Source: an uncultured Anaeroplasma sp. (GTDB lineage Bacteria > Bacillota_I > Bacilli_A > Acholeplasmatales > Anaeroplasmataceae). Taken from it: a stretch of DNA of 44,403 bases. A model generated the notes under the pieces. That model was given only the letters and a program-made list of their open reading frames with translations. It was not told the DNA's origin and did no database searches. The DNA lies in NCBI GenBank assembly GCA_945919465.1, contig CAMEJG010000013.1, positions 1-44,403 of the forward strand. Reading direction: 5' to 3'. Of the stretch, positions 10,857 to 12,766 are shown one piece after another (positions within the stretch are counted from its first letter, which is position 1; each line of letters opens with the position of its first letter). Made by a program: the position numbers and the translations under genes.

Positions 10857-11639
10857 TTAGCATTTGATTTTATGTGCAAGTCTTAATTTATCTGCAATCA
10901 TAGCAATAAATTCAGAATTAGTAGGCTTTGATTTATTATAACTAATAGTATAAGAAAATATTTGTGATATTGCTTCAACATTTCCTCTATTCCAGGCTAC
11001 TTCAATAGAATGTCTAATAGCTCTTTCGACACGAGAAGAAGTAGTATTATATTTTTTCGCTACTGTTGGATATAATACTTTTGTAATACCACTCAAAATA
11101 TCAATATCATTGTATACCATTGTAATAGATTCTCTAAGATACATATACCCCTTGATATGTGCTGGTACTCCAATTTCATGAAGAATATCTGTTATTTCCT
11201 TATCAAGGTCTAAAGGAGCCTCCTTCGATTCTCTTAAATTAATTGAGGTTCCTTTTTTGTTTGAATCCTCATTTAATAAATTTAATATAGTTTTTTGTAA
11301 ATTATCTAAATTAACAGGTTTAATAATAAAATAATCAGCACCTGCTTTTGAAGCTCTTGCCATAATATTTTCATTTGGAAAAGCTGTAAACATAGCAATC
11401 TTTTTAGGTCTATGATATTTTGGATTATTATTAATTTGATTTAATAATTCAACTCCGTCAATCTCAGGCATACAAATATCAAGTAAAAGTACATCACATG
11501 ATTCATTTTCTAAATGTTTTAGTAATTCTTTTCCTGAAGTAAATGATTTTACAATATCAACAAAAGATTGCATTTTTAAATATTCTGAAACCATATTTAA
11601 GATTTCAACGCTGTCATCAGCTATAATTATTTTTGCCAT
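10857..11639 (-). CDS. spo0A: Sporulation master regulator Spo0A
   Basis: Response regulator and transcription factor that commits the cell to sporulation, 260 residues (normal length). The receiver domain has the acidic pair D8/D9, phospho-acceptor D54 ([12 protein letters not shown]), T85 and K107 (IIKPVN). A variable linker follows. The C-terminal Spo0A DNA-binding domain starts near 150 ([17 protein letters not shown]) and contains the recognition region [19 protein letters not shown]. The Shine-Dalgarno AAGGGAGGG lies before the ATG. A sigma-A promoter and several 0A boxes lie upstream, and a terminator follows directly. Confidence 0.97.
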
Positions 11640-11694: not shown

Positions 11695-11748
11695 TACTTT
11701 TTTTAAAATTAGAAATAAGTTTTTTTTGATTCAATTTAATTTGACATT

Positions 11749-11801
11749 TGTCGATTGTCGAATTAAATTATATTCTATCATATTTGTCATTATTTGTCGA
11801 A
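11749..11801 (-). promoter_or_regulatory. 0A-box cluster and a second spo0A promoter
   Basis: Read on the plus strand, four copies of the Spo0A-box core TGTCGAA or close variants occur: TGTCGAT (11749), TGTCGAA (11756), TGTCATT (11785) and TGTCGAA (11795). The last two are in register 10 bp apart as ATTTGTCNNN repeats. On the minus strand TCGACA (11800-11795), 17-bp spacer and TAGAAT (11777-11772) form a promoter whose -35 coincides with the best box. This resembles the known arrangement of Spo0A-activated sigma-A promoters. Confidence 0.6.
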
Positions 11802-11815
11802 ATGTATTCACTGAT

Positions 11816-11839
11816 AAAAAAAAGGAGTTTTTACTCCTT
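11816..11839 (-). terminator. Pectinesterase terminator overlapping its stop codon
   Basis: On the minus strand AAGGAGT-AAAA-ACTCCTT followed by T6. The TAA stop lies within the hairpin. Confidence 0.8.
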
Positions 11840-12766
11840 AAAATTAATATATTTAAAATATTCATATATATATTTTTCTTTTTCATTTTCTGTAAGTATA
11901 TGAGCCCAAGGTACACGTTTAGATAGATCATATTTATTAGAAAACTCATAGAATCTTGCAGTTTTATCTCTATTTGTATTATTCCATTTATTAAAACCCT
12001 CAGGGACAATATGTGCTTCATAATCAGAATCAATAAAGGCTGCATAACCATAATCTCTCCATGGTCTTGCTAAAAATACATTTTTGGTTCCCTTATCACA
12101 TGTGAAATTACATTTATAAAATAAATATCCAAATCTAGTTTCTAAAGAATGAGAAGGGGCACAACAATAACCATTTGTTTCAAAAGGAGAAGTGCTTTTT
12201 AAAAGGGAATGAATTTGGCATTGATAAAATAAAGCAGTACTACCACCAAAAATAAAATCAACATCACCAATAATTAGGCAATTATTGTATATTTGTTTGG
12301 TTTCTTTTCCTAATAAGTGAGAATCAGGCTGAAAGCCTTGATATCTATCAATAAGATTTTGAGGCATTGGACCTGTAAATAAAGTATCTTGTGCACTTTT
12401 AATAATCAAATTATCCCCATAAAAATTGTCTCCATCTACATGTAGAGCTACTGCTTGTCCATATTTCGAAGAAGGAACGCTACTGTTTTCTATTGTTAGA
12501 TTTTCTATTTTAACATTATCGCTATTAACATATAAAGTATATGTTCTAAAGGTATTACATTCATTGCAATCAGGCATGATTTTGTGATAATAATCATTAT
12601 TCGTTATTATTACGTTTTCTTTAGACTCTCCAATTATTGTAATTCCATTAGAATATATTTCAACTTTTTCTTTATATATACCATTTTTTAGAAATAATAT
12701 ATCGCCAGAATTACATTTTGATAAAATTTTATTGATTGAGTTACTATTGTTAATAATATATTTCAT
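11831..12766 (-). CDS. Cytoplasmic pectinesterase (CE8)
   Basis: Removes methyl esters from galacturonan, 311 residues. Parallel beta-helix signature motifs of CE8 are all present: GQAVALHV (103-110), QDTLF with the acid D127, GDVDFIFG with the nucleophile D170, and LARPWRDYG with R234. There is no signal peptide, so it acts on imported oligogalacturonides. It diverges from the pectin transporter operon across a 233-bp region. The ATG is preceded by TGGAGGT. A promoter-like TAGCAT-N17-TATACT sits just upstream. Clear family, high confidence; cytoplasmic location is inferred from the absent signal. Confidence 0.93.
   Translation of the reverse strand: MKYIINNSNSINKILSKCNSGDILFLKNGIYKEKVEIYSNGITIIGESKENVIITNNDYYHKIMPDCNECNTFRTYTLYVNSDNVKIENLTIENSSVPSSKYGQAVALHVDGDNFYGDNLIIKSAQDTLFTGPMPQNLIDRYQGFQPDSHLLGKETKQIYNNCLIIGDVDFIFGGSTALFYQCQIHSLLKSTSPFETNGYCCAPSHSLETRFGYLFYKCNFTCDKGTKNVFLARPWRDYGYAAFIDSDYEAHIVPEGFNKWNNTNRDKTARFYEFSNKYDLSKRVPWAHILTENEKEKYIYEYFKYINFKE

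Follow-up and report, generated by a model that had tools for sequence, protein, structure and literature searches.

In Bacillus subtilis, the spo0A control region contains two promoters, Pv and Ps, and the boxes 0A1-0A4, and Spo0A~P regulates its own gene directly. Sigma-H and sigma-F are among the usual partners of Spo0A, and DNA looping has been proposed for B. subtilis. At the spoIIG/spoIIE-type sigma-A promoters, which are activated by Spo0A, tandem boxes lie 10 bp apart and close to the -35 element. The Mollicutes-related family Anaeroplasmataceae has long been regarded as non-sporulating. It has been reported that sporulation genes including spo0A are present in the majority of Anaeroplasmataceae genomes (Field et al. 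2024, PMC10868615).

In this study, we analyzed the spo0A control region in a 44,403-nucleotide stretch of DNA from an uncultured Anaeroplasma sp. (contig CAMEJG010000013.1, referred to as the window). As in B. subtilis, the leader contains several 0A boxes and two putative promoters and is predicted from its sequence to serve direct autoregulation by Spo0A~P; its outer boxes are reverse and then forward, as in most of the Bacillaceae loci compared. Boxes 0A1-0A3 of B. subtilis lie between Pv and Ps (PMC12090719). In the window, a tandem covers the -35 of a candidate distal promoter rather than following Pv. The proximal promoter also differs from that of B. subtilis in that it looks sigma-A-type and lies 42-53 bp from box B2, with no sigma-H gene found in the family, and the neighbor of spo0A is a pectinesterase-like gene instead of spoIVB. 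The 10-bp tandem close to a -35 is shared with the spoIIG/spoIIE-type promoters, but the polarity of the spo0A boxes is opposite to that of activator-type sites elsewhere in the family. This type of control region is well known, and the novelty seems to be a variant of it in a Mollicutes-related host that apparently lacks sigma-H and sigma-F. Regulatory evidence thereby joins the gene-content evidence that some Anaeroplasmataceae may keep a working Spo0A circuit; the parts that appear to persist with sigma-H apparently gone are the box polarity, the 10-bp spacing steps and the sigma-A-like proximal promoter.

Gene context and 0A boxes of the spo0A leader

The window corresponds to contig 13 of a genome of 2.1 Mb that is 97.7% complete. 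Its spo0A gene (10857-11639, minus strand) encodes intact receiver and DNA-binding domains. The full-length protein matched TIGR02875 with 313.5 bits against a curated cut-off of 200, and the DNA-binding domain, Spo0A-C, aligned over 115-117 residues with 1fc3 (E = 6e-56) and 1lq1 (E = 2e-55), with a 16-residue segment kept in the window protein. The nearest named relatives of this Spo0A belong to an "uncultured Mollicutes bacterium" (71%) and an "uncultured Anaeroplasmataceae bacterium" (69%), and the spo0A upstream regions of both are identical to those of family genomes (L016 to L103 and L017 to L099), on which grounds we assign the family to Anaeroplasmataceae. We found spo0A in 21 of 55 family genomes and in 5 of 27 genus genomes.

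A leader of 191 bp separates spo0A from the pectinesterase-like gene upstream (11831-12766, minus strand; PF01095, E = 2.6e-37). An intrinsic terminator at the end of this gene (11822-11839, minus strand) was the sole terminator match between 11000 and 13000, and an Rfam scan of the window returned tRNAs only. The pectinesterase-like gene is the upstream neighbor of spo0A in many family genomes of several genera (the window, L009-L012, L098-L103, L106 and L110), with spoIVB located elsewhere (C36, L148). In other lineages (L108, L018 and L021), the neighbor is spoIVB.

The original prediction placed four 0A-box-like cores upstream of spo0A, two of them in a 10-bp register. All four were found on the plus strand: TGTCGAT (11749-11755), TGTCGAA (11756-11762), TGTCATT (11785-11791) and TGTCGAA (11795-11801). 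The first two abut at 7 bp, and the spacing of the last two is 10 bp. The leader contained two exact 0A boxes compared to a shuffle mean of 0.028, a number reached in none of 3000 shuffles, and four boxes with at most one mismatch compared to 0.71 expected (P = 0.006).

The family upstream regions were aligned on their boxes. They follow a plan in which a reverse pair, TTCGACA-N3-(T)TCGACA (A1 and A2), precedes a forward TGTCGAA/T (B2). In the window, A1 is an exact TTCGACA of reverse polarity (11795-11801, minus strand) and occupies the same place as in most family upstream regions. A2 (11785-11791, minus strand), the predicted TGTCATT, reads AATGACA; its position, 10 bp from A1, is conserved and TTCGACA-like in most relatives, and it has decayed here. 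B1 (11756-11762, minus strand), another exact TTCGACA, is an extra reverse box of the genus; measured between starts, it follows A2 by 29 bp and precedes B2 by 16 bp. Four of the five genus members share this spacing, and other genera lack the box. B2 (11740-11746, minus strand; TTTGACA on the plus strand), which the prediction had missed, is a forward TGTCAAA with one mismatch at the conserved downstream-box position, where 16 of 19 other family sequences have TGTCGAA or TGTCGAT. L010 lacks the usual B2 and proximal promoter.

The remaining core, TGTCGAT (11749-11755; ATCGACA on the minus strand), sits between B1 and B2. It was rejected as a 0A box and is probably not functional, as its columns are unconserved and read AGCGATG, TTCGAAA and ATCAACA in genus relatives.

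The 19 family upstream regions held 29 exact boxes, compared to 0.5 expected. In the wider class, 75 of the 97 regions upstream of spo0A contained one or more exact boxes, compared to 2.4 expected, and reverse polarity was seen in 71 of 99 boxes. A set of 74 loci, mostly from Bacillaceae, most often (27 loci) had a reverse box far from the gene and a forward box near it, which agrees with the 0A1-0A3 region of B. subtilis (PMC12090719). We also considered that the boxes arose by chance or are relics, left in a lineage that has lost sporulation. The degradation of A2 and B2 in the window and the 34 of 55 family genomes without spo0A would fit such a history, which nevertheless appears most improbable given the box excess over shuffles, the fixed box positions, and the presence in the same genome of spoIVA, spoIVB, sigE, sigG, sigK, spoIIAA/AB and a boxed spoIIA promoter.

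With considerable confidence, we regard the region as one through which Spo0A~P regulates spo0A, organized on a plan common to Bacilli, with A1/A2 over the candidate distal -35 and B1/B2 between the promoters. Box conservation before spo0A extends from the family through the class to Bacillaceae, and the DNA-binding domain is close to the solved one; on these grounds, autoregulation by Spo0A~P, known from Bacillus and proposed in the original prediction, is very probable. With A2 and B2 both degraded here, this species may have a weaker circuit.

Proximal and candidate distal promoters

A promoter scan was not used as support by itself, as it gave 30 matches in 2 kb of AT-rich DNA compared to 17 expected. 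The second promoter that had been predicted nearer to spo0A was found as TTGAAT-N17-TAATAT (P2; 11666-11694, minus strand) and is strongly conserved: 19 of 20 family sequences contain TTGnnn-N17-TAnnnT, located 54-79 bp upstream of the start codon. P2 looks sigma-A-like throughout the family, as judged by its fit to the sigma-A pattern; the sigma-H pattern used for comparison was too crude to serve as a positive control in Bacillaceae leaders. An AAAAAG-TTTT-like A-tract recurs between B2 and P2 in family upstream regions (about 11700-11732 in the window). In several relatives it lies about 24 bp before the proximal -35 and is possibly an UP element.

A distal promoter with a 0A box on its -35 was also predicted, and the minus-strand sequence TCGACA-N17-TAGAAT (11772-11800) is indeed present, with TCGACA lying inside A1. 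Its support is confined to the genus. Part of the overlap follows from the motif itself, as the TCGACA of a reversed 0A box (TTCGACA) agrees with TTGACA in five of its six letters. A -10 matching at five or more of six positions was found 16-17 bp from a box in all five genus members, two of them with TATAAT; in the window and L010, A1 would serve as the -35, and the other three members would use A2. When the downstream stretch was shuffled, an equally good -10 arose in 17% of cases, and the -35/-10 pair taken alone is weak evidence for a promoter.

These observations leave room for a tentative alternative, which we think somewhat improbable, in which P2 is the sole genuine promoter. The apparent distal promoter would then reflect the likeness of reversed boxes to TTGACA in an AT-rich sequence, and every box would act on P2 from a distance. 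The five-of-six match by construction would be expected under this explanation, as would the scarcity of a good -10 near a box outside the genus (one of ten sequences of other family genera), the near-invariant form of P2 and the phase that A1 keeps with it. The -10 elements of the genus, present at the proper spacing in five of five members, argue instead for a distal promoter.

The spacing of the elements in the family changes in discrete steps. Start to start, A1 and P2 are 106/107 or 116/117 bp apart, B2 and the proximal -35 are 42 or 52/53 bp apart, and A1 and B2 are 53/55 or 64/65 bp apart. In other families of the class, the A1-B2 distance is 55 bp (seven f10 genomes) or 74 bp (five f13 genomes). 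Steps of about 10 bp fit a need for the sites to lie on one helix face, although the independent changes are few and relatedness is uncorrected. The outer-box distances of 27 mostly Bacillaceae loci gave a peak period of 10.5 bp, with R = 0.65 (0.57 on distinct values) in a calculation that ignores relatedness. Values from the Mollicutes side (53-55, 64-65 and 74 bp) differ in phase from that set. Helical phasing of the outer boxes is thus only suggestive.

Sporulation genes and sigma factors in the family

The genome of the window contains spoIVA, spoIVB (away from spo0A), sigE, sigG, sigK and spoIIAA-spoIIAB, and a weak spoIIGA match is clustered with sigE and sigG. The sigE, sigG and sigK products matched these families best, yet scored under the strictest curated cut-offs, which is attributable to the distant lineage. 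No protein in the 55 family genomes, including 17 good-quality genomes with spo0A, exceeded the TIGR02859 cut-off for sigma-H, while B. subtilis was positive; the best match to this model in the genome of the window was sigK.

Likewise, no separate sigma-F was found in ten genomes with spo0A searched with the sigma-F model. They gave one match of about 255-263 bits, with the remaining matches at the RpoD level, and G002 (78% complete) gave an RpoD-level match only. In the genome of the window, the protein matching the sigma-F model scored higher as SigG, and its gene adjoins sigE. We considered that sigma-F had been lost with its whole operon, and this was ruled out by a spoIIAB search, which found the operon present without sigF. 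At six loci (L268, G000:C22:26500-31500, and L269-L273), spoIIA consists of spoIIAA and spoIIAB without sigF. spoIIAB is directly followed by spoVA-like genes at four of the six, and an unrelated ORF of about 185 aa intervenes at L269 and L270; spoIIAA and spoVA were assigned by eye from translations.

With sigF missing from the spoIIA operon and no separate sigma-F found in the ten genomes, the target of SpoIIAB may be the one sigma-F/G-type factor encoded next to sigE. It is plausible, though we hold it with reserve, that the family has a shortened sporulation program, in which Spo0A autoregulation would run through sigma-A promoters only, without sigma-H, sigF has gone from spoIIA, and SpoIIAA and SpoIIAB would act on that one remaining factor. 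The searches may have overlooked a sigma-H or sigma-F of strongly diverged sequence.

Box polarity and the sign of regulation

Across the family, exact 0A tandems occurred in 11 of 55 genomes, ten of which have spo0A, and a control pattern occurred in none. The eleventh genome, G011, is 64% complete and has spoIVA and spoIVB. This distribution supports the autoregulatory reading. For the ten exact tandems away from spo0A, the forward reading leads toward a gene; at least two of them lie between divergent genes, and several show a -35 at 9 bp and a TATAAT-like -10 at 16-17 bp. In spoIIA, one forward box lies 26-27 bp before TATAAT in all six genomes, including that of the window.

The polarity of A1/A2 is opposite to that of these activator-type sites before spoIIA and genes for exported proteins, which makes repression at A1/A2 more likely than activation. 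The opposite sign, with the distal promoter switched on by Spo0A~P bound to A1/A2 in the manner of spoIIG-type sigma-A promoters, draws on the 10-bp tandem over the -35 and on the TATAAT-like -10s that follow 17 bp on in the genus. We consider it unlikely, as the ten other exact tandems and the spoIIA box all read forward while A1/A2 is reversed, and modeling in B. subtilis found the spo0A boxes, as a group, to be mainly repressive (PMC12090719).

In the repressive model, Spo0A~P would bind the reverse tandem of A1 and the decayed A2 over the candidate distal -35, and the downstream pair B1 and B2 between the two promoters. Occupation of A1/A2 and of B1, which covers the start region, would lower distal promoter activity. 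Binding at B2 would adjust the proximal promoter, which would carry most of the expression. The signs assigned to A1/A2, B1 and B2 are inferred from box position and polarity. A promoter switch, as originally predicted, is possible, but the classical sigma-A/sigma-H switch of B. subtilis does not apply, since the family genomes yielded no sigma-H gene and P2 resembles a sigma-A promoter; this lineage is expected to do without a sigma-H step. The named sites are now available for testing both autoregulation and DNA looping.

Exact forward tandems also precede sigma-A-like promoters of genes whose products resemble exported proteins or lipoproteins (L123-L125 and L129-L132); judged by their N-termini, many genes after tandems are of this kind. 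These tandems possibly represent a Spo0A regulon outside sporulation. In the genome of the window, no 0A box was found before the spoIIGA-sigE-sigG cluster. The decayed spo0A tandem of the window does not pass the near-perfect tandem filter, and the only tandem in this genome that passes is TTCGACAAAATTAGACA (G000:C30:20058-20074; L149, about 4560, minus strand), which precedes an HPt-like gene and a receiver-GGDEF-EAL-like gene.
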